Positions 5,766 to 63,968 of a DNA stretch of 64,000 bases are shown one piece after another. Origin of the DNA: Diospyros lotus (taxonomy: Eukaryota; Streptophyta; Magnoliopsida; Ericales; Ebenaceae); assembly GCF_014633365.1 (NCBI RefSeq), contig NC_068347.1, forward strand, positions 12,491,655 to 12,555,654, given 5' to 3'. The position numbers were made by a program, and so were the translations under genes. Numbering within the stretch: position 1 is the stretch's first letter; the number at the start of each line of letters is the position of its first letter. The notes beneath the pieces are model-generated. The model had not been told where the DNA came from. It saw only the letters and a program-made list of their open reading frames with translations, and did not search any database.

Positions 5766-5782
5766 TCCTCCCCCCTTAAAAG
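5766..5782 (-). other. Polypurine tract of L
   Basis: On the minus strand CTTTTAAGGGGGGAGGA directly precedes the LTR start TGTAATACCCC. It is the plus-strand primer site and has the form typical of Tekay/Del elements. Confidence 0.8.
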
Positions 5783-8727: not shown

Positions 8728-8740
8728 CTCTAATACCAAC
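8728..8740 (-). other. Primer binding site (tRNA-iMet) of L
   Basis: On the minus strand GTTGGTATTAGAG(C) follows directly on the LTR end GGGGCGTTACA. It matches the initiator tRNA-Met complement with one change. Confidence 0.8.
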
Positions 8741-26800: not shown

Positions 26801-26982
26801 CCAACGCTCGACGCTACTACCGCCGCTTCACCTGTTGCCGGCCACCGCCTCAGCCGTTGCATGCGCAATCACCACCAGCCGTTTCTGCCTCAGCCTCCCT
26901 CGCCACTCCCTGAGCTCCAGCACTACGGCCATGGTCGCAGCTTCTTTAGGCCGCCACTGCAATCGTCCAGCAAGCTCTCTCT

Positions 26983-27028
<46 letters not shown>

Positions 27029-27687: not shown

Positions 27688-28135
27688 TATGGTCTACCCA
27701 TCCTTGGATGAAATCATGATTTGTGCCCATTCCCTTGCTTGGTTGACCTTTTTGGTAATATTCAATTCATGTTGAATCTTGTTGAAAGCTTAAATAGGGT
27801 TTGATTCACCCTATCTTTCTTAAGGAATGATGCTTTCTTGTTTAAGGTGTAGCTTAAGAAAGACTTAGGTGTTGTCTTGCTTATATTCTTTGACTAATCA
27901 ACATTGCTATCTAATTCTTAGTGCAACCATTGAAATTGACATCTGCAGGCATAGGATTGGGAAGGAAAGGGCATGGACATAAATATATGTGTTCATTTAT
28001 GATGGTTGCGATTTGGCTGGTGGCCATAGAGATTGTAATGTGAGGATGACATAACCTAGGCATGTGAGAATATATTTGTGTATGGGAGTTAGCCCTATCA
28101 ACTAAAACATGGTATAGCATGAATGCCGGGACATG

Positions 28136-42386: not shown

Positions 42387-44002
42387 CTTTACTCGGTCCA
42401 AACTTAGCTTCAACAACTCAAGCCACATATAAATCACGCAGACTCACAATCATCTATCACACTGGTGATTACAACAATTAGATACATCTATGCTCAACAA
42501 CACATACATTTACTCACAAGGGTATACATACACAGCACCACATGGCCACATACAAGAGATAATAAAATACACAACTCGGGCAACACCGCTAGTTGCCACA
42601 ACAGCTTCCCGGCGCCATCCCTGCTTGCATATGGACTTGCAGCATCTACACATGAGATGAAACCTCATGAGTCATAAAGACTTAGTAAGGGTGCAATGTA
42701 TGTAAATATGAATATAACCATGTTTATGTATGCCGAATGCATGCAAATGAGGTTAGGCCCACACATTCTCACAACTTACCAAGGTTTGAGGCACTAACCT
42801 ATCAACCTCCACAACACTAGTCCTCCATATGGCCACAAGTCCACTAGATCTCGCATCACGCAAGTGTTAACCACTACATGCAAATGCAACATAAAAACAT
42901 TATCAAACACATTTACCAACTTGCAAGGCCACCTCCACATGGGGCCATCCCTTACTTGGCTCGAAGCCTCATCCCTGCCTTGGGCGAGAACGCCAACCCG
43001 AACTTCAAACTCTTCTAGGATCATCGCCTCCAAGACGAACCTAAAGGCAAACACACACAAACCCAACTCCATTAACATCCGGCATTAAACCAATGCCCTC
43101 AACTTCACCACACATCGCAAAACCACCCGACAACAAATCAACAAAAATAACACCAACCATGCCATAACTGGCCATCAACAACTTTCCAAACAACCTCGAC
43201 ATAGGGTTTAATCCAACAAATAATTATTCTACATTAACTCGCTTAATGCAAATAATTTGGGAAGGAAAATCTCGCCATTTGCGCCCAAAATCTCGCTCTC
43301 ACACCTCCAGCACGTTCTTCAAGCCCATAATAATTTCCATAAATTCCTCCAATTTTTTGGGATTTTCTAGCTATTTTCCCCTTATTTTCTCATTTTCTTT
43401 TCATTTTTTTTTCTTTTATTTTATTTTCCTTTTTTCCCTATTTTCTTCTTCCTCATGCGTTCCTTCTTCTTCTCTCCTCCATGCGCGCATAGCGCCTAGA
43501 CCAGCACCTCTAGCCGCCCGCTGCCTGGCTTGTACACTCGCTGCCGCTCGCAACACCGCCTCCGGCTGCCTTCGACTGCATCGCGGCCATCCTTGCTGGC
43601 TGCCACCGTCGCAGCAACACACGGCCGACAGCTCCCCTGCGCGCTGCAACCCGTGTCAGCCATGGCCGACCCCGAGCTCCTGGCCGCCACTTCCTCCGTG
43701 CGCCTCCGGCCACTGGCCATGCACCTCCGACTGTTGTGAGCCACGCTGGCTTAGCCATCTGCGCCACCAGCCCACTGCAACCAGCTTCCTCGCGCGCATC
43801 TCTGCGCACTGCAACTCCAGCACGCAAACCGCCATTGTTGCCGCTGGTTCAGCCTTTACTGGCCGTCGTTGCTACCTGCATCGCCCACGCCAGCCGTCAT
43901 CATCGCGAGTTGCTCTGCCCTACATTGCCTTCAGCCACAGCAACCATGGCCTCTTCCATCGGATGCTGATGCTTCATCATTGGCCACGGCAGCCATTGAT
44001 TG
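42387..44002 (-). mobile_element. K5: 3' LTR, first part
   Basis: From the ACTCGGTCC phrase the sequence matches 61511-63177, the K5 5' LTR. The U5 end (about 320 bp) is missing at the fusion with K4. At 43998-44002 is GATTG, the left TSD of the chimeric insertion; the LTR resumes at 54465. The 253-aa plus-strand ORF at 43246-44007 is antisense and low-complexity. Confidence 0.87.
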
Positions 44003-44230
44003 TGTAACATCCCGTTCGAGCGATAGGAAGATCCGAAACAACTTATCCTGATGAGCCTACACGAACTTCCCAGGGGGGTCACCCATCCCTGGATTATCCC
44101 AGGTTAAGCGTACGCTTAACTTGGGAGTTCTTTGCCAACATTCAGCCCAAAAGGTATCCAGCTGGTGTTGTTTCCTTTCTTACACTATTCTCGATATATA
44201 CTAACTTCTCTGGGCTCTCGGGGTATTACA
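44003..44230 (-). mobile_element. Cassandra TRIM LTR with 5S-like promoter
   Basis: This 228-bp LTR on the minus strand begins TGTAATACCCCGAGAGCC and ends GAACGGGATGTTACA. Its centre is related to 5S ribosomal RNA, the defining trait of Cassandra, a terminal-repeat retrotransposon in miniature found across vascular plants and thought to be transcribed by RNA polymerase III. It is the 3' LTR of the chimeric insertion. Cassandra encodes no protein, so it depends on another element for particles, reverse transcriptase and integrase. Confidence 0.92.
44059..44133 (-). promoter_or_regulatory. 5S rRNA-like internal promoter region
   Basis: The minus strand reads AAGAACTCCCAAGTTAAGCG, then after an interval GGGATGGGTGACC and CCTGGGAAGTTCGTGT. 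These match the middle and 3' part of plant 5S rRNA, including the A-box (AAGTTAAGC) and C-box (GGATGGGTGACC) segments. In this copy the A-box is extended into a perfect 18-bp palindrome, GTTAAGCGTACGCTTAAC (44103-44120). It is not a 5S gene: the 5' third is absent. Confidence 0.9.
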
Positions 44231-44246
44231 TTCTCCCCCCCTTAAG
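44231..44246 (-). other. Cassandra polypurine tract
   Basis: The minus strand reads GCTTAAGGGGGGGAGAA just before the LTR start. GGGGACGTCATGAGC upstream resembles the GAGGACGAAATTC that precedes the K and L PPTs. Confidence 0.85.
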
Positions 44247-44428
44247 CTCATGACGTCCCCGTTATGCGACCTTACAACTGGTCCCAGATCTCTCCCCCCT
44301 TGCATGGCCGATGTGGGATTCTCCTAAGGTGCCTACACGCACCCCCCATAAGGGCCTCACACCCCCCTCGGGACTCAGCCTCCTCGTTGAGGTTTGCCCC
44401 ACCACCGCGCTCAAAGGCTCGAGGGTCG

Positions 44429-44442
44429 GCTCTGATACCAAC
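44429..44442 (-). other. PBS (tRNA-iMet) at the K-Cassandra join
   Basis: Minus strand GTTGGTATCAGAGC. Upstream of it lies the K LTR end (GAGTCGTTATA, with the final CA mutated to TA); downstream lies Cassandra sequence (CGACCCTCGAGCC). Confidence 0.92.
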
Positions 44443-45304
44443 TATAACGACTCGCTCCTACTTATGGGCGCCACCGGTAAATAATCAACCGGATTACTCA
44501 CCCAACAAACCACAACTGAAGGGTTGGACTATGTTTCAACAGGAAATGCCCTAGGTGGGAACTAGGCTTCGTCCTTCCCTTCGCTCCACTCAGGAATCGG
44601 TCCCAACTCAAATAAGAAAAATCCAACGGACCAAGACCCGAAACCCGAGTGAGCTTCACCTCTCTTCAGCTCACCCCATAGCAAGCTAGAGGTGACCCAA
44701 GCATAAAGCTAGCATACAAACACTTCGCTGAGTATTGGGGATTTATGAGAACATACCTTGCTGATCTTGACTCGGTCCGAAACTTGGCTTAACCGACTAT
44801 GCCACATTCAACAAGCAATCTCACAATCATCTATCCCATTGATGATTTACAACAATTAGATACATCTACGCTCAATAACACACACATTTACTCACAAGGG
44901 TATACATACACAACGCCCACCTGGCTACATACAAGCAATAATAAAATACATAACTGGGGCAACACAGCTAGTTGCCACAACGGCCTCCCGACGCCACCCC
45001 TGCTTGCATCCGGACTTGCATCATCTACACATGAGGTAAAACCTCATGAGTCATAAAGACTCAGTAAGGGTGCAATGCATGTAAATATGAATATAATCAT
45101 GTTTATGTATGCCAAATGCATGCAAATGAGGCTAGGCTCACACATCCTCACAACCCACCAAGGTTTGAGGCATCAACCTATCAGCCCCACCACTAGTCCT
45201 CCTTATGGCCACAGGTCCACTAGAGCTTGCATCACACAAGATGTAACCACTACATGCTAATGTAACATAAAAACATTATCAAACACATTTACCAACTTGC
45301 AAGG
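44443..45304 (-). mobile_element. K6: 5' LTR, U5-side part
   Basis: Colinear with 61186-62047 of the K5 5' LTR. It is interrupted after CAAGG (45300-45304) by the Athila-type element and resumes at 52623. Confidence 0.9.
45030..45063 (-). repeat. Double hairpin in K6 LTR
   Basis: CATGAGGTAAAACCTCATG followed by GAGTCATAAAGACTCA, as in the other K LTRs. Confidence 0.7.
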
Positions 45305-46866
45305 TGATGTGTGATTTTATGCACAATTAATTCGGGCAAGTGTACTCTAGTCAAATTTGCATATAGTGATGAAAAGATGTCGATCCCACGAGGACTAGAT
45401 CACAATACCAAAACGATTTTAAATTAACCTAAGTTGAACCAATTAATTAATCAATGAATCAAAATGAAAATAAATGGAAAACTAGATTCTTTGTGAGAAA
45501 AATTAATTAATAAATGCACTAGGGTTTAGATTTCATTTAATCTAGGTTATGGAATTATCTATTCAATCCAATTCAAAACCACAAATACATTTATAGTATT
45601 TTATAATTATTTGCATGTGATGGTGGATTTCCCTCAATTAATTAATAAGCTTTCTCAAGTCATATTAATCCTTTATTAATTCAATTTCACTGTCAGATTT
45701 CTGAGCAGATATCAATGAAATAAATAAGTATTAAGTTCTTTGGAAACCTCTAATCTCGGAAGGGGATTTGACTCACTAAGCTTCCTCGATTCCCACACAT
45801 GAGCTAATCATCTTTCGATCTCATAGTCAAACACGTGATTTATATTGCCTACGATCTAATTTATAACAATTTTTTAGTCAATCATGCATAAATCATTAAA
45901 TCATTAAAAGGTGGCCAATCTTTTAAAGCATTAAACACAACAATATAAATTCCTCATGCAAATAATAATCGGGTTTTGAATCGAACCAAACAAATACTCA
46001 CATAATTCCAGAATTAAAATCCATCCAAACCCTAGCTAAAATAAATTAACTAGACATTATTAACATAAAAATAAAAACAGAAATTAAATGAATGAAACAG
46101 AGAGGCTCCCTGTCCCAGATCTGAAACAGATCTGGGCGCGGCTGCTGGCTCCAATTTTTGTATTGTTCGCGACTTCAATTTCCTCTTTTGTGTCCACTAC
46201 TTCTCTTCTTCAATCTCACTGTGTGCGGCTTCCCAATTGCTTCGTTGTGCGCCGTTCCAAGCCTCTTCTGTTTTAATCTCCAATTCCTTTCAATCGTGTG
46301 CGCGGCTCCCAGCCTCCTCACCTTTTATTCCATGTTCACATATTAATATATATATATATATATGCATGACATGGGCCGCCCTAGCCAAGCCCAATTCAAG
46401 CCACTTCTTTTGATTTGTTTAATAATATATATATATATATATAAAAATATAAATATGCACATGGCATTCACGCTACTGCCAATTACTATATATATATATA
46501 TAAAATAGTTAGGTTATTATAATATTATATATAAATAATATAAGATAAAATATAATATATATGAAATAATATATATAATATTTAATATACTATTAAATAT
46601 AATAACTTTAATTATATTATAATATTAGTTATTTAAAATATTTATTTATTTTTTTAATTTATAATATTAATTATAAAATTAACTTTATAATATATATTTT
46701 TTTTTCTTTTTACGCCCAAATCTTCGAATTTATTTCCTTTGTTGGATTCCTACAAAACAAGAATAAAACAATGTAAAATTCATATAAACACACATTTATG
46801 TAGGAAAAATAGTACAAGGTTAAGATAAAAAATAAATAAAATTATGTATATAATTAAGTCCTATCA
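45305..46866 (-). mobile_element. O: 3' LTR
   Basis: 1562 bp, nearly identical to 51065-52617. On the minus strand it starts TGATAGGACTT and ends ACACATCA. It includes the GTCCTCGTGGGATCGACATC block typical of Athila/Tat LTRs and several TA microsatellites (46340-46362, 46424-46442, 46484-46502). The two 62-aa ORFs at 46088-46346 are chance. Confidence 0.93.
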
Positions 46867-46912
46867 AATACCCCCACACTTAACCTTTTGCTTGTCCTCA
46901 AGCAAAGTAGAG
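46867..46912 (-). other. O: polypurine tract
   Basis: The minus strand reads GCTTGAGGACAAGCAAAAGG then TTAAGTGTGGGGGTATT immediately before the LTR start TGATAG. It is the canonical plus-strand primer region of Athila/Tat elements. Confidence 0.88.
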
Positions 46913-47834
46913 AAGAAATACAAAATAAACATTTTATTTTCATGCTAGGCCAAAATCAAGAATTCCAATAACATATCAACGCATAATTAATCACAAAATT
47001 GGTTACCATACATATTATCATATCAACTCTAAATCCAAAAGTATTAATTGAAAGAATTAGTCATACAAAATCATCACTTTTGATGCCATGCATACTTCAA
47101 AATTAATTTATGAAATCTTGTAACTAACACAATTGAATCATGCAATAGCCTTCTTGCAATCACTTCTCTCCACTACTACAAACATAAGGAGTAATAGGGA
47201 TGATTTTTTTTTTTTTTTTGAATCAATCTTTTCTAAGCATTACTTGGCTTTTGACGCGAATGTCGACATTTTGTGATGAAGACACCCGGTTATTCTCCTA
47301 AATAATTGCTTAGAATGCATTTGCATACTCATATTTTGAACTACCGTTTGACGTGAAGGATGATGCAGGAGCATACTGTCAACCCCCAGTTACTACTAAG
47401 TAGCTCAAAACATAGGAGTAGATAAATAGCAATAACATTTTTTTTTCTTTTTTTATTTTTTTTGCTTTTTTTTTTTTTTCATCCCATTTTACTTCAACTC
47501 TGTTTAGGCCTAGTTTCAAGAAATAATCACAATATTATTCTCACATAATCAATCATGCATAATCACAAAATCCCATGAATTTTGTCAAGAAGCATATATT
47601 TCAACCATCATGATAATCCAGCATAGTCAATTCCTTTTCCTTAACACTGTTACATCTAGAATCAATAATCAAATAGAACAGTTCCCAATTTTGAATTAAC
47701 TATGCATTGAACCAAAGTTAATATAGGAAACATGAAATCGGCCTAAACATGAAAATAAAACATTTTTTTTTCAAGAAAATCATCATTTATGCACATTATA
47801 TATTTCTTCTTTCTTTTTCTTTTTCTTTCAAAAA
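46913..47834 (-). mobile_element. O: 3' untranslated internal region
   Basis: A/T-rich, non-coding, with homopolymer T runs (for example 47207-47220 and 47460-47480). I see no gene or other element. Confidence 0.75.
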
Positions 47835-48486
47835 AATTGAGAATTATTGAATTTCCCTTTTCATGAGCAGGAACAAATTTTAAATGCCAAGAACAAGGTC
47901 GTGGGCGTGGTCCATTTTAAAAAAAAGAAAAAATGTTGTCCATCCAAAAGAGACAAGTTGTTGCCTTTGGATGTTCCTTCTTTTTCTTCAAAAGCCAAGC
48001 CACCAAGTCATGAAAAGGAAAAGTTGATAAGGGTGTTGAGGGAGCAAAAGAAAGGAATTGGATTGAGAGTTGTTAGCATTCAAGGAATAAGTCCATCAAT
48101 TGGCACGAACAAAGTTTTAATGGAAGAAGGATTCAAGCCTCCGTGAAGATGGAAACTTAGTCAAGCTAATGACTATAAAGAAGCGCTTGATGGGAGGCAA
48201 CCCATTCGAAATATTATTTATTTTTTTTTCTTTTTATTTTTCTTAATTTTTAGAATATTCTTGGATTGATTTCTTATTTCAATTTTTTTTTTCTTCTTTG
48301 TAGGACTTGTTGAATCCAAAAATCCAGCCCATCTTCTTCAAAAGAATAAGGCCAACAATCTTCAAGCATTTCAAGAAGGTCTACATCAGGGGAGTATTGC
48401 TTTTCTTTTCTTTTTTTCTTATTTTTAAACATTGGGGACAATGTTTAATTTAAGTGTGGGGGTGGGAAATTCAATAATTCTCAATT
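47835..48486 (+). mobile_element. Inverted segment of O bounded by 23-bp inverted repeats
   Basis: Arms 47835-47857 and 48464-48486 are exact complements (core TTGAGAATTATTGAATTTCC). Between them the coding and 3' landmarks run on the plus strand, opposite to the rest of O: a reverse transcriptase N-terminal remnant, then the post-integrase phrase AAGCGCTTGATGGGAGGCAA, then CATTGGGGACAATG and TTAAGTGTGGGGG. Everything from early reverse transcriptase to the end of integrase is deleted. Confidence 0.8.
47847..48146 (+). pseudogene. Reverse transcriptase N-terminal remnant
   Basis: The peptide contains HEKEKLIRVLREQKKGIG and ISPSIGTNKVLMEEGFKPP, which correspond to the region just before and at the start of Athila/Tat reverse transcriptase (the 'LRVLREHKKAIGWTI..IKGISPS' block). 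It stops at that point; no catalytic YxDD region is present. It also repeats the PSKRDKLLPLDVPS phrase that ends the minus-strand gag-pro frame, so the junction region is present twice in opposite orientation. It cannot encode an active enzyme. Confidence 0.8.
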
Positions 48487-50848
48487 GATGGTCTGGCTTT
48501 CGAAGAAGAGGAAGAGGAAACATCCAAAGGTAGCAATTTGTGTCTTTTGGATGGATTGAATTTTTGCTTTTCTCCCAAATAGCCCACAGCCTCCTTGTGT
48601 TGTTCATCTAAAATTTGATCCTTCACATCAAAAGAGTTAGCAATGCAATTTTCTATAGGCTCATCTAATCTCTCTACCAAATCATCAATGCCATCTATCC
48701 TAAAGACTTTTTTTTCATTGTCATTAGAACATTTCGTAGCCTTAAACACATTGAAAATAACTATCTCATCATAAATTCTAAGGCTAAGTGTTCCTTGCTG
48801 GACATCAATCAAAGCCCTCCCTGTGGCAAGAAAAGGTCTCCCTAAAATTAGGGGCATATCATAATCTTCTTCCATATCCATAACAATGAAATCAACAGGA
48901 AAAATAAATTTATCTACTTTTACCAAAACATCTTCCACTACTCCCCTTGGATATTTGATACTTCTATCAGCCAATTGAAGAGAAACAGTGGTGGGTGTTG
49001 GTTCTTTTAATCCAAGTTTCCTGAAAATAGAAAAGGGCATCAAATTAATACTTGCACCGAGGTCACATAAAGCCTTATCAAAATTAATTCCACCAATAGT
49101 GCAAGGAATAGAAAAGCTCCTTGGATCCTTAAGTTTTGGAGGCAATTTATTTTGTAGAATTGCAGAACATTCTTCATTAAGTTTCACCATCTCAAATTCC
49201 TCCAACTTTCTTTTGTTTGCAATTATGTCTTTCAAAAATTTGGCATAACTTGGCATCTGTGATATAGCATCAAGAAGAGGGATGTTAATATGCAATTTTT
49301 TAAACACCTCTAAAAATTTAGCAAATTGTTTATCCAAGTTAGCCTTCAAAAATCTTTTAGGAAAAGGAAGAGGAGGTTTGTAAGATTTTAAATTAAGTGA
49401 AGAAGAACTCCCTTTTTTCTCTGTTGATAAATCATGATCCTCTTCTTTGGCTTCCAGCTCTTGGTTTTCTTTCTCTTTTGTACGCTCTTCATCTTTTTCT
49501 TTACTTTCAAGTTCTTTTCCACTTCGCAAAGTGATGGCTTTTACATGCTCCCTTGGATTCTTCTCAATATTGCTAGGCAAGCCTCCTTGTGGTCTTTCTG
49601 AAATTGCTTGGGCAAGTTGTCCAATTTGAGTTTCCAAGCTTTGCATTCTTGCTTCTGTACTATTGATAAATTTTGCCATTATATCTTCCAAATTTGGCTT
49701 CTTCTCCTGTGGAATTTGATGTTGTTGTTGTTGAAAGCCGGGGGGCACTCTTTGTTGATTATTACTCCAAGAAAGATTAGGATGGCTCCTCCATCCTGGA
49801 TTGTAAGTGTTGAAGTAGGGATTAAAATTTGACCTGTTGCCACCATAGGAAATAAAATTAGCTTGTTCAGAAGAACCAGAAGAAAAAGGATTTCCTACTT
49901 GACAATCTACACTAGCATGACCCCCTCATCCACAAAGCTCACAAGAAAGAAAATGGGGGGAAGAAGAAGAAGAAGCATTCATAGCTGAAACCCCTAAATT
50001 ACCCAAATTCTTATTTAATTCAGCAATTTGAACAGATAAAGCAGTGATAGAATCAACATTATAAATTCCAACTCCCTTTTTATTTGCTCTTTCATTGTCC
50101 CATTGATAACTATTGGCTGCCATCTCTTCCAAAAGTTCATATGCTTCCTCGGGAGTTTTCCTCATAAGGGTACCACCTGCAGTTGCATCTAACATCGAAC
50201 GAGAAGATTGATTAATGCCACTATAAAAAGTTTGCACTTGCATCCAAACAGGTAGACCATGGTGAGGACATTTCTAAGCATTTCTTTAAATCTCTCCCAT
50301 GACTCATATAAGGATTCATTACCAAATTGTGAAAAAGTTGTTATGTCATTCCTTAATTTAGCCGTTTTAGAAGGTGGAAAATATTTAGACAAAAACTTTT
50401 GTGCTAAATCATTCCATGTAGTAATAGAACCTGCTGGAAGAGAATTAAGCCATTCTTTTGCTATATCTTTCAAGGAAAAGGGAAACAACCTAAGTCGAAC
50501 TGCATCCTCACTAACTCCATTATGCCTAAAAGTATCACATATTTCAAGAAAATTAGCAATATGAGAGTTAGGATCATCATTAGGGCCAGAAAATTGTACA
50601 CTCATCTGGATCATTTGAATAATTGCAGGCTTGATCTCGAAGTTGTTTGCTTGCACATTGGGCCTCCTAATGCTTGATGTAGTGCCATCCAGAGTAGGTG
50701 TAGTATCTGAGCTCAACGTCCTTAGATTAGTTTGGGTTGCTTGTTCTTGCTCCATCTTGTTCTTTTTTTTCTCCTTCTTTTGCTTTTTCAAAGTTTTTTC
50801 AATTTCTTGATCAATGGGTATCAGTTCTCCATCACTACTCCGTGTCAT
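48471..50848 (-). pseudogene. gag-protease polyprotein pseudogene of O
   Basis: Start at 50848. About 790 codons: a charged Lys/Glu-rich N-terminus (residues 10-45), a capsid-type Retrotrans_gag domain (about 75-200, with [40 protein letters not shown], and [18 protein letters not shown]), a linker, a CCHC zinc knuckle (CELCG.GGHASVDC), a Gln/Glu/Lys-rich spacer, and an aspartic protease with active-site LCDLGASINLMP and ILGRPFLATGRALIDV. Two lesions: a one-base deletion near 50270 and a TGA inside the zinc knuckle (49926-49928). The frame is otherwise open from 50243 to 48471. Gag would form the particle and the protease would cut it; the enzyme half of pol is missing. It ends at the inverted segment, whose arm supplies the stop. 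Confidence 0.9.
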
Positions 50849-51064
50849 GCACCATGAAACCTACAAAGAAAAAGAAAAATACTAAAAATAAAAAAAATTA
50901 AAAATAAAATTTCTAAAAGATGAAAAATAAATAAATAATAAAATAAATAATTAAATTAAATTAAAATTGCAAAACCTAAAAGAAAAAAAAAATGTTCAAT
51001 CTAAGGCTAACTTATGTAGTTTTGATATGCAATAAACTAGTCCCCGGCAACGGCGCCAAAAACT
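50849..51064 (-). mobile_element. O: untranslated leader
   Basis: A/T-rich, non-coding sequence between PBS and gag start codon. Confidence 0.8.
51041..51058 (-). other. O: primer binding site (tRNA-Asp type)
   Basis: Minus strand TGGCGCCGTTGCCGGGGA, six bases from the LTR end; the standard PBS of Athila and Tat elements. Confidence 0.93.
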
Positions 51065-52617
51065 TGATGTGTGATTTTATGCACAATTAATTCGGGCAAG
51101 TGTACTCTAGTCAAATTTGCATATAGTGATGAAAAGATGTCGATCCCACGAGGACTAGATCACAATACCAAAACGATTTTAAATTAACCTAAGTTGAACC
51201 AATTAATTAATCAATGAATCAAAATGAAAATAAATGGAAAACTAGATTCTTTGTGAGAAAAATTAATTAATAAATGCACTAGGGTTTAGATTTCATTTAA
51301 TCTAGGTTATGGAATTATCTATTCAATCCGATTCAAAACCACAAATACATTTACAGTATTTTATAATTATTTGCATGTGATGGTGGATTTCCCTCAATTA
51401 ATTAATAAGCTTTCTCAAGTCATATTAATCCTTTATTAATTCAATTTCACTGTTAGATTTCCGAGCAGATATCAATGAAATAAATAAGCATTAAGTTCTT
51501 TGGAAACCTCTAATCTCAGAAGGGGATTTGACTCACTAAGCTTCCTCGATTCCCACACATGAGCTAATCATCTTTCGATCTCATAGTCAAACACATGATT
51601 TATATTGCCCACGGATCTAATTTATAACAATCTTTTAGTCAATCATGCATAAATCATTAAATCATTAAAAGGTGGCCAATCTTTTAAAGCATTAAACACA
51701 ACAATATAAATTCTTCATGTAAATAATAATCGGGTTTTGAATCGAACCAAACAAATACTCACATAATTCCAGAATTAAAATCCATCCAAACCCTAGCTAA
51801 AATAAATTAACTAGACATTATTAACATAAAAATAAAAACAGAAATTAAATGAATGAAACAGAGAGGCTCCCTGTCCTAGATCTGAAACAGATCTGGGCGC
51901 GGCTGCTGGCTCCAATCTTTGTATTGTTCGCGACTTCAATTTCCTCTTTTGTGTCCACTACTTCTCTTCTTCAATCTCACTGTGTGCGGCTTCCCAATTG
52001 CTTCGTTGTGCGCCGTTCCAAGCCTCTTCTATTTTAATCTCCAATTCCTTTCAATCGTGCGCGGCTCCTAGCCTCCTCACCTTTTATTCCATGTTCACAT
52101 ATTAATATATATATATATATATGCATGACATGGCCGCCCTAGCCAAGCCCAATTCAATCCACTTCTTTTAATTTGTTTAATAATATATATATATATATAA
52201 ATATAAATATGCACATGGCATTCACGCCACTGCCAATTACTATATATATATATAGTTAGGTTATTATAATATTATATATAAATAATATAAGATAAAATAT
52301 AATATATATAAAATAATATATATAATATTTAATATACTATTAAATATAATAACTTTAATTATATTATAATATTAGTTATTTAAAATATTTATTTATTTTT
52401 TTAATTTATAATATTAATTATAAAATTAACTTTATAATATATATATATATTTTTTCTTTTTATGCCCAAATCTTCGAATTTATTTCTTTTGTTGGATTCC
52501 TACAAAACAAGAATAAAACAATGTAAAATTCATTTAAACACACATTTATGTAGGAAAAATAGCACAAGGTTGAGATAAAAAAATAAATAAAATTATGTAT
52601 ACAATTAAGCCCTATCA
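51065..52617 (-). mobile_element. O: 5' LTR
   Basis: 1553 bp, starting on the minus strand TGATAGGGCTTAATTG at 52617. It pairs with 45305-46866; the first 240 bp at the U5 end are identical and later differences are mostly C/T changes and microsatellite length. Confidence 0.93.
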
Positions 52618-52622
52618 CAAGG

Positions 52623-54459
52623 CCACCTCCACATGGGACTGTCCCTTACCTGGTTCGAAACCTCATCTCTGCCTCGGCACTAATTTCAGCCCGAACTCCG
52701 AACTCTTTTAGGATCACCTCCTCCGCAGTCGAACCTAGATATAAATACACACAAACCCAACTCCATTAACATCCGGCATTAAACCAATGCCCACAACTTC
52801 GCCACATATCACCAAAATCGTCCATCAACAAAATTTCAAATAACCTCAACACAGGGTTTAATCTAGCGAATAATTATTACTCTCTGAATAAATTAATTCA
52901 AAGAAAATAATTCATTTACCTCAATCAATTTGGAAACGAAAATCGGCCAATCGCCCATACCGGCATTGCCTCATTGACTGCTATCTCAAGTCCAAAATCC
53001 CATTCTCGAGCTTCCAGTATGCTCCACGAGCCTCGAAATAATTTTCAGAACTTTTCTAGATTTTTTCTGAAATTTTCTCCTATTTTCCCTCATTTTTCAG
53101 AATTTTCCATATTTTCTATTTTCTTTTCTTTTTTTTTCTTTTTTTCTTTTCCTTCTTCTTCCTTGGTCTTCTCCCGCGCGGCTACTGTTCATTCATCTTC
53201 TTCCTCGCGCGGCCCACCTGCGCGCTCCTCTCGCTGTCCACCATTTGGCCTTCCAACGCCTTCGCCAACCCCCAACGGTCACCACCACCAGCAGCCGCGC
53301 CCCCCTCCGGCCATCGGCATAGCCATGAGCAGCCCCCCGCGACCTCAGTCCCACGCACGCGCAGCATTTCCAATAGCCATGGCTGCCGCAACCAGCTTTT
53401 TCATTGCCTCCGACTGGCGTCGCCGCCGCTTCCTCCACCGTTGCAACCAACCACGGTCGCTTCCAGCTTCGTCTAGTCTCCCCTGTTGTTGCCTTCCCCT
53501 ACAATGCGTCGGCCATGGCAGCCTCCGCTGCTGGCCGTTGCAACTAGCCGCCATCGCGGCCTTTGATGCTGCATTTGCCATCGCCGGCTTCCTCTGTTGC
53601 TTCTGGTCATCACGGCCGCCACAAGCTGCCTCCTCTCGAGCCATCGCTGCCATCAGCCCCTCCTCAAGCTGCAGCACCGCGGACATGGCAGCAGCCTTTA
53701 ACTGCTGTCGCATCTCTCTCTCGGTCTCTCCGTCCCTCTCTCGAGAGCTCTCTCTCTCTTCGGTCTCGGCCATTACTCCCTCTCTCGATCGCGAGCCCTA
53801 TCTCTCGATCTATCTTTCTCTGTTTCTCATCTCCTGATTTGGATTTCAAATTTTGAAATGGGTGGCAGCTCTCACGCACCAGCATATATATATATATACA
53901 CTTAAAATTACTTATTAATCCCTCCAAATTTTCCATAATCACAATTAAGGAAATTTAATTACACTTGGAATTTTTAATAATAACACTTTGACCCTCCAAG
54001 GCTTAATTAAATTACTCTTAGGCCACCCCAAATCTCGATTTATTCGAAATTAATGACCGACCGCTTCTCGGGAATACCGACCTCGTCCCTACGCCTGCAC
54101 GGGACCTTTATTCGACCCGAAAACACTTAAGGGTTGTCTTACTCAGAAAACCGAACCACCCCTAGGGTCCCCTCTGACTATTCGGTATTGCCACCCACTC
54201 GAGCTTATACAGAATTTATTCTGAAAATTCTTCCCGGTCGGACCGCTGTCAGCCTCCTTAATCTCATCTCGAGACGCTCACCAACCTCTTGCTCTCTTCC
54301 CTGGACATCCAAGTCCTGAGGCACTCCCAACCGTCAATTCGAAAATTCTTAATAATTAATTACTCAAAACCGACTCTTGGGTTTCCCGAACCACCCGAGA
54401 TCCTTTCAAAATAATCAAAAATTATTTATTTTCAACACCATGTAATACCGGGTATTACA
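52623..54459 (-). mobile_element. K6: 5' LTR, U3-side part
   Basis: On the minus strand it begins at 54459 with the perfect 19-bp palindrome TGTAATACCCGGTATTACA. TA microsatellite at 53884-53896 is the likely TATA region, followed by (GA)n tracts. The 287-aa plus-strand ORF (52974-53837) is antisense, Phe-rich then Ser/Pro/Ala-rich; the composition follows the pyrimidine-rich strand and gives no known domain. Confidence 0.9.
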
Positions 54460-54464
54460 GATTG

Positions 54465-55231
54465 GCCCTCTCTCACAATCTCACTCTCTCGAAATCTCTC
54501 TCTCGCACAATATCTTGGCCTGACTCCCTCTCTCGGCAATGCTCTCTCCCTCGCAATCTCTCACGAGCTCTCACTTCCCCCGCTCTCTGGTTTGACCATT
54601 TCAAATGGCAGATATAACACTAGGAAGCTTCCTTGAAGCTTCCTCACATATTCACGCCATATATATATATACTAATTACATATAAACCCTCCAAAAATCT
54701 CAAAATTCCACTTAAGCAATTAATAATTGCACTTGAGGATTTTTATAATAACACTTGGGCCCTCTCAAGGCTTAAATTAATTATAATTAAGCCACTCCCA
54801 ACTCGATTTCTTTGAAAATTAATATTCGACTTTTACTCAAAAATACCGTATTCGTCCCTACGCCTACACGGGACTTTTATTCCACCCAAAAACACCTAAG
54901 GGTTGCCTTATTCGCAAAATCGGACCACCCCTAGGATCCCCTTAGCTTCCCAAAGGTCCCCTACGACCATTCGGTATTGGCACCTACTTAGACTTATACT
55001 GAGTTTATTCCGAAAATTATTCCCAATCGGACTGCTTCTAACGTCATAAACCTCGCCTCGAGACGCTCATCAATCTCTTGCCCTGTTCCCTGGACATCCA
55101 AGTCCGCCAATTCGACAAATTTCATTAATTAATTACTCAAAATTGACTCTTGGGCTTCCCAGACCACCCGAGATCCTGACAAAATAATCGAAAATTATTT
55201 ATTTTCAATACATGTAATACCGGGTATTACA
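54465..55231 (-). mobile_element. K5: 3' LTR, second part (U3 side)
   Basis: Continues 42387-44002 after the chimeric insertion; matches 63183-63968. The minus-strand start at 55231 is TGTAATACCCGGTATTACA. Confidence 0.9.
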
Positions 55232-55248
55232 TTCCACCCCCCTTAAAG
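55232..55248 (-). other. Polypurine tract of K5
   Basis: Minus strand TTTAAGGGGGGTGGAA next to the LTR start, preceded by GAATTTCGAGGATGAAATTC, the typical Tekay/Del context. Confidence 0.87.
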
Positions 55249-58200
55249 AATTTCATCCTCGAAATTCACTTTACCATACTTTCTTGCCCAAGATAATTAT
55301 ATTCTCCGGCTACATGCCAAATTCCCATGCTCGAGAATCTCATAGACTATCCATTTCTCATCCTTTACCTTGGGTTATTCCCACCTCAAGGCTTCACTTA
55401 GGTATTTTGTCCTCCGCCTCTCGAGGACATTCACCAACCGAATACCGTTTTGGCCTCCAGACAAATCGCACCACTGGTCGCTGGTCATGCTTACTGCAAC
55501 GATATCCATCTCCTAATGGATTTTCTCTGCTGCGAAACATCGTTTTGCAGTCCACTTCCCATTTTCCTATCAATCAAAATGAACTCTCGCTAATATTGCA
55601 TCACTAATCAGTCTACCACGATTTTACGCCAATCACACATGGCCATGATTTTACGCTGGTCCAACCAGCAACGTCTTAGCACTGATCATCAGCCGCAATG
55701 TCTCTTCTAGTGCCCACAAGACACTCTAACACCCATTCATCATGGCATACCACCATTTATTACAAGCATGCATGGTTTGAGTCGATCCTCGTGGCAACTT
55801 CTCGTTACCGATCAACTTACCATGCTAGCACTACCTGGGAAGTAACCATTTGGCCCACCTAGCCAACTTCGACCATTTCATGAATGGTCTACTACCTTGA
55901 CCGGCCGACCCTCATTTATCGATATGATTATGCATACTCGACATACCCAACACCATGCCAGGTAATTACACATTTCAACCATACGTGCACTACCCGAGTC
56001 CACCTTGAGCTTGGCGATGCACGCACCATTACAATCTCACCTCGAGCTTAACCATGCTCGGGCCACAACTTTCTTCCAACCAGGAGTTTCTTGCATAAGC
56101 ACACAGACTCCACTGGCCTTCCTTTTTGGCTGATACTGCACGCTAGTAGGGGTCTCATACCCATACCAGGGAACTCTTCATTAAGCAACCCCTTCAATAC
56201 ATCACCCAATTTAGCTTTCACAATCATCCCCATGCTAGGCCTTACTTTGGCTATTAAACCCTATCGCAAGTCAAGGATCCTACCATTGCTCTTAAGGTCG
56301 CAGAACCATTAATCGGCCCTCGTCAGCACCCATGGTGCGTGGCACAAGTGATTGGCTTATTACCATCTGCACAATCACTTATTGCATCGCACTTGTAGGA
56401 TGACCCGTGCCTTCGGTCCGCACCACAACAAGTCAACATGGTTACACCCCCACTCTTGTAGCAGTCCTCTAGCCAAATTCACTCACCCAGCTTCAATTTC
56501 ATTGGGACCTTTCAATTTCTGTCGTTTCTTGTCAGAGCCTCTTACCTTAGAGGCACGAAACTTTCAGCCATCCTAACTCAGATTCATTTTAAATCCGCAA
56601 TAGACCCCTGACTTTACCATGCATAATGGTTACCTTTTGACCTTCCTGACAACATCTTTTCCCTGACAGCTATGATGACACCACCATGCCATCTCAAAAG
56701 ACTTGCTGCTCCATGAATCTCACTAGTCAACACAACCAGCATGACCCCACTCTTAGGTTGCCTTCCTTATATCACTTTGCTATACTTATATCAACTAGCT
56801 AATTCCCTGAGAGACTTTGGTTTCTCCCGGACTTCTATAACTTTTGCTTCAATCAGCTCACATCACATGGTGAGCGACCACATTGGCTGCAATGCTACCA
56901 TAATCGGCTAGGACCACCTCCTGCCATCACTTGGCGCCACATCCAGCCACAATCATGACTCTAAAGCACCTACGCCACCAACTAACTACTCTCAGGACGC
57001 CACATGACCATTGCCAGCCACTGCCGGTATCACTGGTCGGCATCTTCGGTCGCCATTGGCTACCCCCAGCCGGTCACCAATCGACTCCACTAGCTGATTT
57101 CCTTTCACAATCGTTAACCTTTAGTCACTAAGTTAAATCTCATTAATTGCCCACACTCCAAGGCACCCCTCTAGCCGTATCACTCACAGCTATCAGGTGA
57201 TTTCACCACCTAAACACCATTCCTAGGAACCAACCTCGTCCCACAAGCTCTTCCTTCGAGCTTTCGTCCCCTATTGGCAACATCTTAAATTCACCCTCAA
57301 CTTTCATCTAGCCAACTCGATTAGCTCTAGCCAGATCGCCCAGCTCATAACCAACACAACCTTCCTCCAAGCATTACACTTGCAATCATCGACTATCGCC
57401 TCGATTTGAGCTCCATCCACTAGAAATCACCCCTGCCACTCATGTGGAATTTACACTCCCACTTGATGCCGTAGGACTCACATTCCTACTCAGGCACTTG
57501 CCATCACACTGGCTTTCCCCGGGTGATCCATCATGTTAGAGTTATAGTGCATTAGGAAGTTTATCCCGTGTTGTTGCCCCATTCTCAACTTGGGAGAATA
57601 TCTCAAGTTCTACCCCATGACACATTTCAACATTACCATCTATAACCCTTCGTTACGGAGTAACACTCCTTTGAGCAGCACAATTTTTCCCTGACCAACC
57701 ATCTTCTATAACACTTGGATTTCTTTCTCAAAATTCACCTGGTTTAGCCACCAGGACTGGCTGAACCTTTATGTACACGGTCAATCAACAAGGCTTTACA
57801 TCACAATCCTCAAGCCTCACGCTCCTATCATTGCCATCAGGTGCTACCACCTGGCAATTGATCCTGTGTCAGCTACCGGAAATCCATCCAGTGCTACATA
57901 AGGATACTTCCTCATTTTCACATCGACACAATCAGGACTAACACTAGACTGTGCAATTGCGAGTCTTCACTGATTTCGAACCGTGCCTTATCCACTTGTT
58001 CAGCCTGCCACAACTCACATCACAGGATTAGAGATCCCTATACTTGAAACTTTTGCACTCTTCAATAATTCCATCTCATGGTTGGCTTCTAACTCGTAAG
58101 TTTCGCCCTCCACGGCACTTACGTAACATTTTGGAGCCATTTACCGACTCCACCAATCGACCCATCTTCTTGCTTCACCGCAAGGTCACACTGGGTCCAT

Positions 58201-58754
58201 CATCTGAATTTACCCAATCCATTTCGATTGAATTCAACCATAACTGCGTTAACATCCTTTAACAAGGAACATCACCACACATCTTGTTATCTCACCACAA
58301 GATATTACCCACTTCGATTCACAAACCTTCTGCTACCACGACAACAAAAGGCATTACCACGATTCTTCAACCCTCACAGAAATTTAGGTCTGGCCCAAAC
58401 ATAACCTACAACATACCCCAGGTCTTCGGCTTCTAATCATCTCCACCGCAGACGGGTTAGTCCACATAGAGGGCTGCAATCCCTCCTGTGAACTAACCGT
58501 CTATATCCAGTGGTCCTTAGCATTAGACCCGTCAACGGTAGGCATCAACCGTAGCGTTATTCCCATGCTAGACCCGTTTCTTTTCCATGGGTTTCTTTCT
58601 CAAACATTTCTGAATGCTACAACACCTTGACATTCACTAAACCGCCTCAACACTGTTTATTACTCACAGCTGAATTATGGGACTAACCACTGCTTTCGTC
58701 GCCCCTACCGTGCATCTTACAGATCTTCTACCCCTGACCATCTGCATAATCACT

Positions 58755-58926
58755 GTGTTGCCCTGTGCTTTAGGCGAGCCAACACCCGGTCATCATTACC
58801 GTGTCACTCCCATACACTGGCCCAACACTGGTTCCCCATCGTGTTGCCTTGTGCTTCAGAGAGTCAACACTTAATCATCAATACCGTGTTGCTCCCTTAC
58901 ACTGGCCCAACAACAGTTTTCTACAG
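58755..58926. repeat. 86-bp tandem duplication in K5
   Basis: Two copies starting GTGTTGCCYTGTGCTT at 58755 and 58841, ending in ACACTGGCCCAACA. A related phrase lies near 26123 in K3. Confidence 0.75.
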
Positions 58927-61171
58927 CACAGCTCAGGTCCCACTCCGATCTGCTTCGCACCCCGCAGTGTGACTTTCAACCTTCCAGTCCAACCTTCGAT
59001 ATCGAACCTGGCATGACTACCCCACCACACTCGCAGCCAATATCCTTACCAGGTTCCTACTTGGCCACTAATCTATTGGACCATTACTGCATTCCACGAT
59101 TCTTCCCTTAGGACTACTCTAGATGTCATATCTCTTACAAGAGACAATTGATTTCACCTAACCAACTCTCTTAAGGTGCTGCTCCAGATCTTCGGCATCT
59201 GATCGTCACCTGCAGTTCACTAAATTGCTCAGGCCCATGAGCCACTTGCCCTCAACGCGAGCCAACTCATTAGTCCTCTGCCATACGGTCCATAGCATCA
59301 GATCCATCACATTGAGCCGTGCACCCATAGCATCAAAGCTACTTAAAGCATCCCCGAACTACGATGGTTCCGCTACCATCTTACCAAAGCCATCTTACTT
59401 GGTTATCCTTGCCTTGATAACCTCAAGCTCATACCCTGAGCCCTGCTCCTCCGGACTCTACATCTCTTACCGCTTAAGAGGCTCTCAAACTACCTCAGCT
59501 CTTGAGGCCTCAGGATCTTACCCCACAAGATCATACCTCACGTCTTTCACTCAACATTTGAAAGCTCCAACTTTCCATGACGATGGATCCAAATCCATCG
59601 TGATTCACTTTGCCACCCAGCTCATCCTAGAGCTTGATTATCATCAGTCTCTCAATCCACAACCGACGTGCTAAGCCTACCTCAAGCTCCGGCACCCATG
59701 ACCATAAGGCACCTAACATTACCCTCCAGGTAAATCGAGACCTCCCATCTCTCCTTGCACACCCATAGTGCATTTAATCACGACACCCGGCCTGGCCTTC
59801 CAGCACGCCTCGCATTGGCTTCCATAACTTGGAATTTAAAATTCGGAGCCTCCACATTACTCGCCATGCCCCTGCCCACTTGGCATCCAAAGTTGGCATT
59901 TCTTGCGCGCGCATAACCCATGGATGTCCTGTTGCCACAAACTCATCACCCTTAGACCACACACCGCTCATACCCTTCATTGGGTGACCTCCGCGTCTCC
60001 CATCAAGGGTCTCGTGACCTTAGGCGTCATCTCCACCCCAGGCATCACAATGAGGGTCTATTCTCCTCTCATCTCCTAACCTTAGGCGTCCCACCAGACC
60101 CTAAGAGTCATAATGAGAGTTTTGATTGGCCCCTCATCCATTAATCACATGAACGGTCTTTTGGCCCTTCACAACTAGGACTTCTAACCCAATGGCTCTC
60201 ACACGCATATCAACGCATACCTAACTTCTTAATCCTATATCTGGATTCCTCTGGATTCCAGTTCGACCTACTTGAAATTTCCATCTCATACAGAAACCTG
60301 CTAGGTTCCACTCATACCCTAGGCACATCCCCTCCGGGATCGCCATAGCCATACAATCACATGGCACCATATGAATCTCTTGTGCATAACTCACACCCGA
60401 CTCCCCTCGAGGTCCTTCCGCAAACTACCAAAGTCATGCCTACCCTGGCCATGACATTCAAATGCATTACATGCACACTCCCCATAGAGCCTCACTGCAA
60501 TTAACCTTACCCCCTTCCTAGGGCTCGCCATCTAGCCCGCTGACGACTCATTTTTTTGAGCCTCGAGCTAACTCCCACTTTAGCTCACTCTATCTCAGGC
60601 GAACAAGCCTTACTACACCACTTCCAAGGGACAACTCTAATCCCTTGAACATGCTCTGCAAATCCCTGACATAGGGACGCTCCACTAATCCCCTTTCGGA
60701 CTAGTCATGCTTCGACTTCGTGTCCCCACACGAGCCTCAACACTTCAATTTATTCCCATCCTTAAAACACTATACCATACACCCGAATTCCAATATTTAG
60801 GATTTCCTGACACTGACACCCACACTTGGGTTTTCGGTTTTTCTTTGCTCAACCCGTATACCTCTCACAGGTATATCATCTCAATCCAGGGTATTTTCTC
60901 ATCCCTAGAACAGGACTATCCAAACATACCATTCAAACCATTGCAGGCCTCAATGGCTCGACCCAATCCCTTAGGGTCCTCGGTCCACATGTCTAACTTT
61001 CAAATCAATTGTTCCTGACCCTAACTCAGCAGCTAGGACATTTTGACTTACATCCAAATCATGCCAGGCATCCTTCATTCTAAAACTTTGGCAATTATTC
61101 ACATTAATCACTTAATCGACCATAAATAATATTCCAACACGCTAGCTTTCCCCACCCTTATAGCTAGCCAT

Positions 61172-61185
61172 GCTCTGATACCAAC
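61172..61185 (-). other. Primer binding site (tRNA-iMet) of K5
   Basis: Minus strand GTTGGTATCAGAGC directly after the LTR end GGATCGTTACA. Confidence 0.9.
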
Positions 61186-63968
61186 TGTAACGATCCGCTC
61201 CCACTTACGGGCGCCACCGGTAAATAATCGACCGGATTACTCACCTGACGAACCACAACTGAAGGGTTGGACTATGTTTTAATAAGAAACGCCCTAGGTG
61301 GGAACTAGGCTTCGTCCTTCCTTTCGCTCCACTCAGGAATCGGTCCCAACTCAAACAAGAAAAATCTAGCGGACCAAGACCCGAAACCTGAGTGAGCTTT
61401 ACCTCTCTTCAGCTCGCCCCATAGCAAGCCAGAGGTGACCCAAGCACAAAGCTAGCATAACAAACACTTTGCTGAGTATTGGGGATTTATGAGAACATAC
61501 CTCGCTGGTCTTTACTCGGTCCGAACTTAGCTTCAACAACTCAAGCCACATATAAATCACGCAGACTCACAATCATCTATCACACTGATGATTACAACAA
61601 TTAGATACATCTACGCTTAACAACACATACATTTACTCATAAGGGTATACATACACAGCACCACATGGCCACATACAAGAGATAATGAAATACACAACTC
61701 GGGCAACACAGCTAGTTGCAACAACAGCTTCCCGGCGCCATCCCTGCTTACATCTGGACTTGCAACATCTACACATGAGGTGAAACCTCATGAGTCATAA
61801 AGACTCAGTAAGGGTGCAATGTATGTAAATATGAATATAACCATGTTTATGTATGCCAAATGCATGCAAATGAGGCTAGGCCCATACATCCTCATAACCT
61901 ACCAAGGTTTCAGGCACCAACCTATCAACCTCCACAACACTAGTCGTCCATATGGCCACAGGTCCACTAAATCTCGCATCACGCAAGTGTTAACCACTAC
62001 ATGCAAATGCAACATAAAAACATTATCATACATATTTACCAACTTGTAAGGCCACCTCCACATGGGGTCGTCCCTTACCTGGCTCGAAGCCTCATCCCTG
62101 CCTCGGGTGAGAACGTCAGCCCGAACTTCAAGCTCTTCTAAGATCACCGCCTGCCAGACGAACCTAAAGGCAAACACACACAAACCCAACTCCATTAACA
62201 TCCGGCATTAAACCAATGCCCTCAACTTCACCACACATCGCAAAACCACCCGACAACAAATCAACAAAAACAACACCAACCACGGCATAACCGGCCATCA
62301 ACAACTTTCCAAACAACCCCGACATAGGGTTGAATCCAACAAATAATTATTCTACATTAACTCGCTTAATGCAAATAATTTGGAAAGGAAATATTAATTT
62401 ACCTCGACTCAGCTAGAGAGAAATTCGAAAAATGCCCACACTGACGTTGCCTCCCGAGCTGCCATTTGCGCCCAAAATCTCGCTCTCGCGCCTTCAACAC
62501 GTTCCTCAAGCCCCATAATAATTTCCACAAATTCCTCCAATTTTTTGGGATTTTTTAGCTATTTTCCCCTTATTTTCTCATTTCTTTTTTTTTTCTTTTC
62601 CTTTTTTCCCTACTTTCTTCTTCTTCGCGCGTTCCTTCTTCTTCTCTCCTCCATGTGTGCATAAAGCCTGGACCAGCACCTCCAGCCGCCCGCTGCCTGG
62701 CTCGTACACTCGTTGTCGCTCGCAGCACCGCCTCCGGCTGCCTCCGACTGCATTGCGGCCATCCTTGCTGGCTACCACCGTCGCGGCAACACACGGCCGG
62801 CAGCTCCCCTGCGCGCTGCAACCCGCGTCTGCCATGGCCGACCCCGAGCTCCTAGCCGCCACTTCCTCCGTGCGCCTTCGGCTACTGGCCGTGTGCCTCT
62901 GACTGCTGTGAACCATGCTGGCTCAGCCTTCCGCGCGCCACCAGCCCACTGTAACCAGCTTCCTCATGCGCACCTCTGCGCGTTGCAACTCCAGCACGCA
63001 AACTGCCATTCCTGCCGCTAGTTCAGCCTTCATCGGCCATCGTTGCTGCCTGCATCGCCCACGCTAACCATATCATTGCGAGCTACTCCGCCCTACATTG
63101 CCTTCGGCCACAGCAACCATGGCCGCCTCCATTGGATGTTGATGCTTCATTATCGGCCATGGTAGCTGTTGCCATGGCCGATTGGCCCTCTCTCGCAATC
63201 TCACTCTCTCGAAATCTCTCTCTCGCGCAATCTCTTGGCCTGGCTCCCTCTCTCGGCAATGCTCTCTCCCTCGCAATCTCTCACGAGCTCTCACTTCCCC
63301 CGCTCTCTGGTTCTGCCATTTCAAATGGCAAATACAACACTAGGAAGCTTCCTTGAAGTTTCCTCACATATTCACGCTATATATATATATACTAATTACA
63401 TATAAACCCTCCAAAAATCTCAAAATTCCACTTAAGCAATTAATAATTGCACTTGAGGATTTTTATAATAACACTTGGGCCCTCTCAAGACTTAAATTAA
63501 TTATAATTAAGCCACTCCCAACTCAATTTCTTTGAAAATTAATATTCGACTTTTACTCGAAAATACCGTATTTGTCCCTGCACTTGTACGGGACTTTTAT
63601 TCCACCTAGAAACACCTAAGGGTTGCCTTATTGGCAAAACCAGACCACCTCTAGGGTCCCCTCAGCTTCCCAAAGGTCCCCTACGACCATTCGGTATTGG
63701 CACCCACTTAGGCTTATACAGAGTTTATTCCGAAAATTATTCCCGATCGGACTGCTTCTAGCGTCATAAACCTCGCATCGAGATGCTCATCAATCTCTTG
63801 CCCTCTTCCCTGGACATCCAAGTCCCGGGGCACTCCCTGCTGCCAATTCGACAATTTTCATTAATTAATTACTCAAAATTGACCCTTGGGCTTCCCGGAC
63901 CACCCGAGATCCTGACAAAATAATCAAAAATTATTTATTTTCAATACCATGTAATATCGGGTATTACA
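61186..63968 (-). mobile_element. K5: 5' LTR, complete
   Basis: The 2783-bp LTR is the best reference copy of family K. On the minus strand it begins TGTAATACCCGATATTACA at 63968 and ends GGATCGTTACA at 61186. From U3 to U5 it holds a TA microsatellite (63379-63391, likely TATA), (GA)n tracts, a GC-rich stretch, a purine tract (62575-62650), and the double hairpin. ORFs on both strands in the GC-rich part (up to 112 aa) are low-complexity. The flank beyond 63968 starts AGAAC; the partner TSD was lost with the left end. Confidence 0.9.
61774..61807 (-). repeat. Double hairpin in K5 LTR
   Basis: CATGAGGTGAAACCTCATG then GAGTCATAAAGACTCA; same position in the LTR as in the other copies. Confidence 0.7.

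Follow-up and report, generated by a model that had tools for sequence, protein, structure and literature searches.

How can one insertion begin with the long terminal repeat (LTR) of one retroelement family and end with that of another? This question is raised by an element in a stretch of 64,000 nucleotides of Diospyros lotus (contig NC_068347.1, forward strand, positions 12,491,655 to 12,555,654; hereafter the window, C10:12491655-12555654 of the 630 Mb in 43 contigs that were searched). The element, which lies on the minus strand (54459-44003) together with all of its parts, joins an LTR of a family termed K to the body of Cassandra, a terminal-repeat retrotransposon in miniature (TRIM), at the primer binding site (PBS). 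Such hybrids arise before integration, at the PBS, and repeatedly. We take the element to have been made in a single round of reverse transcription, inside a particle common to both families and with a second-strand transfer between molecules, and then to have integrated, a reading to which we give a probability of roughly 70%.

In minus sense the hybrid reads K LTR, spacer GT, PBS, Cassandra internal region, polypurine tract (PPT) and Cassandra LTR. A first description, made from the letters of the window and here called the sequence-only reading, had placed a whole K LTR at the 5' end, and this is what is found: the LTR starts with TGTAATACCC at 54459, like the K LTRs starting at 63968, 55231, 36293 and 24991, and ends at 44443. 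A younger nested LTR element (45305..52617) divides it into a U3-side part, which forms the 5' end of the hybrid (52618..54459, where 52618-52622 are the second target site copy of the nested element), and a U5-side part (44443..45304), which ends in TTATA where other K copies have TTACA. Without the nested element the LTR measures 2,699 bp, close to the 2,783 bp of the 5' LTR of the K element that hosts the hybrid. To that host LTR BLAST aligns the first 573 nt with 77%, positions 1299-1837 with 68% and the last 860 nt with 89% identity, and positions 574-1298 gave no BLAST alignment to it.

From the PBS onward the hybrid is Cassandra and ends in a Cassandra LTR, again as first described. The K-type spacer GT (44441..44442) precedes the 12-nt PBS TGGTATCAGAGC (44429..44440), where both families join and which we take to be of the tRNA-Met type. 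The bases that follow are CGACCC, against ATGGCT or ATTGCT in K copies. The Cassandra internal region of 210 nt including the PBS (44231..44440) is closed by the PPT AGGGGGGGAGAA (44231..44242), and a PPT-U3 joint of the same kind is present in K, in a family termed M and in chromoviruses. The 3' LTR of 228 bp (TGTAATACCCC...GGGATGTTACA, 44003..44230) contains a stretch derived from 5S rRNA (44059..44131). Aligned with a plant 5S gene, the LTR (44230-44003) scored 59, against a mean of 15.8 and a maximum of 27 in 500 shuffles and a best score of 27 elsewhere in the window; the Rfam 5S model gave no match. The 3' part of the hybrid has the traits of a Cassandra TRIM, namely 5S-derived LTR sequence, a methionine-type PBS and a PPT, and the 438 nt from the PBS to the end of the Cassandra LTR are too short for coding. 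Ordinary copies in the genome have two like LTRs. As the 5' LTR of the hybrid is K, the hybrid as a whole is not classed as Cassandra. Within the 5S-derived stretch, positions 44093-44128 form a near-perfect palindrome, CCCAAGTTAAGCGTACGCTTAACCTGGG.

The hybrid sits in the 3' LTR of another K element on the minus strand. The U3 side of this host LTR (54460..55231) resumes past the hybrid at 42387-43997, the K internal region of the host (55232..61172) is free of Pfam domains in three masked frames, and the host 5' LTR (61186..63968) is without the insertion. The target site duplication (TSD) GATTG was confirmed at 43998..44002 and 54460..54464. When the host flanks are joined with one GATTG, they match 62872-63480 of the 5' LTR with 542/610 identical positions and 12 gap positions, of which 9 belong to one separate 9-bp gap beside the empty site in the sister K LTR. 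The sequence-only reading had pointed to 63173-63190 as a possible empty site; it is indeed present near 63171-63189, with GATTG once, and the host sequence runs on across the GATTG site. The data support a single integration of the hybrid as one unit, with the join at the PBS.

The window copy is one of several in the genome. A pattern for the start of the Cassandra internal region (up to 3 mismatches) hits 1092 places, some of which belong to a related TRIM, and its reversed control hits 0. Among the 30 Cassandra loci fetched first, the sequence before the PBS is a full Cassandra LTR in 25, a partial one in 2 and something else in 3; the window copy and L026 carry a K LTR end, and L003 has the last bases of a K-like end. 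A DNA search with a 516-nt query (K U5 end, spacer and Cassandra internal region) scored the best 40 of 4131 candidates, and 10 of these 40 places span the join, which makes ten a lower bound. The other 30 matches end at or just past the K LTR end (query 301-317), and 139 bits separate the two groups. At least 10 joins per 1092 Cassandra-type starts correspond to a hybrid rate of at least about 1 in 100.

Two of the hybrids have the layout of the window copy, as the sequence-only reading had led us to look for. L031 (C6:43.82M) consists of a K LTR of 2,484 bp, the PBS, the Cassandra internal region and a Cassandra LTR, with CATAT on both sides, and L034 (C6:45.49M) has a K LTR of 2,533 bp and is flanked by CTGGG on both sides. 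The K LTRs of the three copies are 25.5-26.9% apart and their Cassandra bodies 5.8-6.4%, and each body is closer (3.4-3.7%) to some other Cassandra copy. From these distances the three are read as separate events with different donors. The chance of one matching 5-bp flank pair is about 0.0011, and that of three about 1.5e-9. At C6:32.38M and C5:27.10M, likewise among the ten places, K internal sequence comes after the Cassandra LTR, with another PBS in between. Of these two composites the one at C6:32.38M is whole: a K PPT-LTR joint follows 5.9 kb farther along, CTTCC stands on both sides, and of its three LTRs the outer two, both K, are alike at 209/209 positions and at 98.0% of 344. At L033 (C1:6.74M) a diverged K-like LTR end is joined to Cassandra, and no recognisable LTR start was found within the 9 kb fetched. 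At L032 (C1:1.70M) a K-like end is reduced to about 24 nt, and an inverted K internal region comes next.

An independent sample of 40 regions, covering 46 of 100 places listed from the 1092, held 49 Cassandra internal starts, 42 of them preceded by a Cassandra LTR (38 full, 4 partial). The seven starts without one are L035 (the place of L032), L043, L044, L045, two in L065, and L071, where no LTR was recognised before the Cassandra start. What precedes the Cassandra internal region in L043 and L044 (C1:6448545-6454619) is a different LTR-like end, GGTGTCTACAATG, which may mark a hybrid with yet another family. L045 and L065 hold a related TRIM whose LTR, about 182 bp long, is not that of Cassandra; it starts with TGTAAGCACC and ends in ATTACA or GTTACA. 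The first part of its internal region is common with Cassandra, and a 5S-like stretch adjoins in L045.

The position of the exchange can be read from the bases around the PBS. The spacer GT occurs at 3/3 K joints seen in the window and in 1 of 69 Cassandra copies, where AA (30), GG (28) and AG (7) are also found. Since the window copy has the K-type spacer before and Cassandra bases after the 12-nt PBS, the exchange took place within the PBS. L031 has the spacer GG. The reciprocal product (Cassandra LTR, PBS, K internal region), which the sequence-only reading had likewise envisaged, is present at 3 places in the genome (pattern with up to 3 mismatches): in the C6:32.38M composite, at C1:5.496M, where a partial, palindromic Cassandra LTR stands in front, and at C1:1.117M. 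In the latter a whole Cassandra LTR, its 5' flank foreign, is succeeded by K internal sequence that reaches a PPT 5.9 kb on; the 3' end of this element was not found, as the LTR start past the PPT resembles K for no more than about 9 bases, and inverted K was present in a slice taken farther along. The PPT-U3 joint is also common to K and Cassandra, over 25-26 nt with 88-92% identity. Genome patterns for K/Cassandra joins at the PPT found 0 and 0 places in the two directions, and the same pattern method found 326 places with ordinary K PPT-LTR joints. The ten K-Cassandra joins come from a different method, so that the like-for-like comparison is 3 reciprocal joins at the PBS versus 0 and 0 at the PPT.

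When LTR elements are reverse-transcribed, the plus-strand strong-stop DNA comprises U3-R-U5 and a PBS for which the tRNA served as template; this PBS pairs with the minus strand at its 3' end. The sequence-only reading had explained the hybrid by this second-strand transfer, and the transfer is still the best fit, with the amendment that a third element is the probable source of the enzymes. K and Cassandra would have been co-packaged in one particle, where the PBS of K plus-strand strong-stop DNA (U3-R-U5-PBS) would have paired with the PBS end of the Cassandra minus strand. Extension would then give K LTR, PBS, Cassandra internal region and Cassandra LTR, and an integrase would have inserted this product by its K U3 end and its Cassandra U5 end, with GATTG duplicated at the target. 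Because the R regions differ, a hybrid should not multiply in the usual way, and the recurrence would thus reflect repeated formation. The composites would stem from a second hand-over, in which the extended plus strand, ending in a tRNA-derived PBS, would anneal to a K minus strand and yield K-Cassandra-K; repeated hand-over with Cassandra alone might give tandem arrays. Read-through RNA as the donor of the K LTR was considered and rejected, since every full copy would then require an RNA whose first base coincides with the LTR start.

Several observations weigh against this reading or at least against its simplest form. The spacer of L034 is AA, the commonest Cassandra type (30/69), and not the GT of K, and therefore the exchange there took place in the spacer or ahead of it; this would fit if a short duplex with mismatches had been repaired. 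The PBS is a stretch of homology as well, usable by other kinds of homology-led joining. Three of the ten places are without resolved or matching flanks: at C13:17.74M the K LTR start is present and the flanks do not match, and at C1:14.68M and C5:27.06M the 5' side is not delimited. Another two of the ten have rearranged, inverted 5' ends. At C1:2.23M, with ATTTG on both sides, the 5' end is formed by the U5 end of a K LTR in inverted orientation, after which come a fragment of K internal sequence and a partial K LTR; at C2:44.99M an inverted Cassandra LTR stands before a partial K LTR, and the flanks CAAAG and CAAAA are 4/5 alike. Finally, there was no full K hybrid among the 49 Cassandra starts of the independent sample.

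Inverted or palindromic LTR pieces were seen at the 5' ends of Cassandra copies or hybrids at L015, L022, L095, C2:44.99M and C1:2.23M. As two such hybrids have matching or near-matching flanks, the inverted forms seem to have been integrated as they are.

The hybrid could also have come from one molecule, by internal priming on a composite RNA (K LTR-PBS-Cassandra-PBS-K internal-K LTR). Here a tRNA would prime at the second PBS, the minus strand would jump via the K R region, and synthesis from the K PPT would reach the Cassandra U5. Composites of this kind exist, as C6:32.38M (complete, with the TSD CTTCC) and C5:27.10M demonstrate. However, with K LTRs 25.5-26.9% apart each hybrid would need a composite parent of its own, and only two composites were seen; moreover the origin of the composites is left unexplained. 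We consider this route unlikely. Much the same can be said of a scenario in which reverse transcription of K and Cassandra was complete and repair guided by homology or microhomology then fused the two cDNAs at the PBS, ahead of integration. In the vicinity of the PBS and the LTR end the two families do have up to about 20 nt in common, and the rearranged forms with inverted ends and TSD flanks at C1:2.23M and C2:44.99M would be in line with it. Against it, the PPT-U3 joint is also a shared stretch, of about 25 nt, yet the joins there are 0 and 0 against 3 reciprocal joins at the PBS. We consider cDNA joining improbable.

Replacement of the 5' LTR of an ordinary Cassandra at the GATTG site by a K LTR through gene conversion is very improbable: the surroundings are rich in K sequence and the LTRs of both families begin with TGTAATACCC, but the swap would have to run exactly from the LTR start to the PBS, keep the TSD, and recur at C6:43.82M and C6:45.49M from K donors 25-27% apart. 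Although the locus is known from the assembly alone, an assembly error, or a chance crossover of separate K and Cassandra insertions, is hardly credible for three hybrids of the same layout with three different matching 5-bp flanks (about 1.5e-9) and a host that continues across the site. The sequence-only reading had argued against the crossover and had named misassembly and later gene conversion as dangers to its claim; several independent TSD-flanked copies with different donors dispose of all three as accounts of the hybrid.

If intermolecular second-strand transfer made the hybrid, the source of the enzymes has to be considered. The K internal regions, three in the window, were scanned with Pfam on the coding strand with stops masked and showed no coding domain; the scans gave no match at E<=1, one chance-level match (E 0.19) and no match at E<=0.1. 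As a control, the masked-frame method detected a plant En/Spm-type transposase fragment (Transposase_24, E 4.8e-7) at about 14557-14658. K had first been described as Tekay-like. Its LTR start TGTAATACCC agrees at 9/10 positions with the maize/sorghum Del U3 att consensus given in the accessible text of PMC4029996, and K LTRs of 2,484-2,783 bp with 5-bp TSDs fit Tekay/Del (long LTRs of 1.1-4.4 kb, 5-bp TSD). For the Tekay/Del U5 att the same text reports conservation of the last three bases and position -6, with GGG at -8 to -10. The K U5 ends GGATCGTTACA or GGGTCGTTACA and the Cassandra end GGGATGTTACA keep ACA and the G at -6, and compared with that text the GGG is shifted or incomplete in both families. 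The chromodomain polyprotein, a trait of Tekay/Del, was not found in K. The description as Tekay-like is not borne out for K itself, and Tekay as a proven label was rejected because the three internal regions hold no coding domain. A further K LTR (24991-22546, within 22546-27688) has a PPT before and a PBS after it, like the middle LTR of a complex K element.

Since K is without a coding domain, a third element probably supplied the enzymes; K and Cassandra both look non-autonomous. In an unguided BLAST search the Cassandra body gave, besides itself and its own palindrome, four matches with E<0.01 in the window, three in K copies and one in family M, each at the PPT-U3 joint. The family M element (4817-10373) has LTR parts 94-96% alike, no Pfam domain was found in it, and it is about 80% like the 3' ends of the chromoviruses L096-L099. 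SH3_Tf2-1, for which 150 of 8174 candidates in the genome were scored, lies in many cases in open frames of 1503-1598 aa. On the 3' sides of 13 such loci a PPT-like tract is followed by TGTAA in 12, L100 being without it. The chromovirus LTRs of the genome start with TGTAATACCC, TGTAACGCCC, TGTAACACCC or TGTAACGACC, and TGTAACACCC is, in the accessible text of PMC4029996, the commonest Del (= Tekay) U3 att in sorghum and maize. A chromodomain stands directly before the PPT in L106 and L107, above the Pfam cut-off, and in L102, below it (E 0.0022). The element that includes L102 (C6:38997065-39006062) has SH3_Tf2-1 in a 1518-aa frame, AGGTG on both sides and LTRs of 1,892 bp, alike at 730/730 and at 99.7% of 1163 positions, with the start TGTAATACCC and the end GGGGCGTTACA, followed by GT and the PBS TGGTATCAGAGCC.

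Compared with the 29-nt PPT-U3 stretch of Cassandra, K scored 19-21, M 20, the C6:38997065-39006062 element 21 and L106 18; four other chromoviruses reached 13-15, and the element nested in the K LTR of the hybrid 10. Of 2000 shuffles, none attained the score of K, M, C6:38997065-39006062, L106, L104 or L105, one that of L103 and L107, and 39 that of the nested element. The nested element, with LTRs 97.1% alike and the TSD CAAGG at 45300-45304 and 52618-52622, carries Retrotrans_gag and aspartyl protease in open frames (Pfam, nothing further in the two frames scanned), and its PBS TGGCGCCGTTGCCGGGG is presumably of the Tat/Athila type. Judged by the same PBS and the closely similar PPT and LTR ends, the enzymes would most likely have come from a Tekay/Del-type chromovirus, and the chromoviruses of this genome are likely candidates for the partner of Cassandra. 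The autonomous partner is called unknown in the accessible text of PMC7215508, and that of PMC10886601 says 'we have no indication'. Our literature search, with most subscription papers outside its reach, found no hybrid of Cassandra with another LTR family and no named partner.

Inter-family recombination during reverse transcription is a known kind of event; here it is seen in its first-generation state, at the PBS and with Cassandra involved. Hybrid LTR elements between families include Ty1/Ty2 in yeast and the BARE-2/Wham chimeras in barley, whose known joins lie in LTR or coding parts. Du and colleagues are said to have described, in 2010, LTR swapping between autonomous and non-autonomous soybean elements, where both LTRs are alike and the new type multiplied. 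This is likewise an exchange of LTR-element parts between interdependent partners. Here, in contrast, the two LTRs differ, and each hybrid is therefore a first-generation product. Complex LTR-int-LTR-int-LTR insertions in Triticeae have been assigned to template switching (Sabot and Schulman 2007, PMC1950507, accessible text). They are TSD-flanked joined elements from reverse transcription, and the C6:32.38M composite has the same layout with like outer LTRs; but there copies of the same or similar elements are joined, whereas here two families take part and the LTRs of the window hybrid, two in number, differ from each other. The combination of a TSD, three LTRs and like outer LTRs that marks template-switch complexes is thus present at C6:32.38M and not in the window hybrid. 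In ONSEN copies of Arabidopsis recombination is linked to the transposition of an LTR family, as here, but within one family (PMC5668417, accessible text). Cassandra tandem arrays, as far as the accessible texts of PMC7215508 and PMC4668562 go, are head-to-tail LTR-internal units of one family, whereas here units of K and Cassandra are joined; such arrays also occur in this genome (L005, L008, L025).

We see about even chances that cDNAs from different families are handed over at the PBS time and again in plants, in a relay that makes hybrids, composites and arrays, and that Tekay/Del-type particles copy Cassandra. The hybrids make visible an intermolecular second-strand transfer that is traceless when both partners belong to the same family, and LTR exchange, composites and TRIM arrays could arise by such a route. 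They also show which other element's DNA arose in the same place as that of Cassandra, and a testable lineage for its partner emerges from the PPT, LTR ends and PBS that the elements have in common. If this is true, Cassandra, which is found across vascular plants, would gain a concrete candidate partner.

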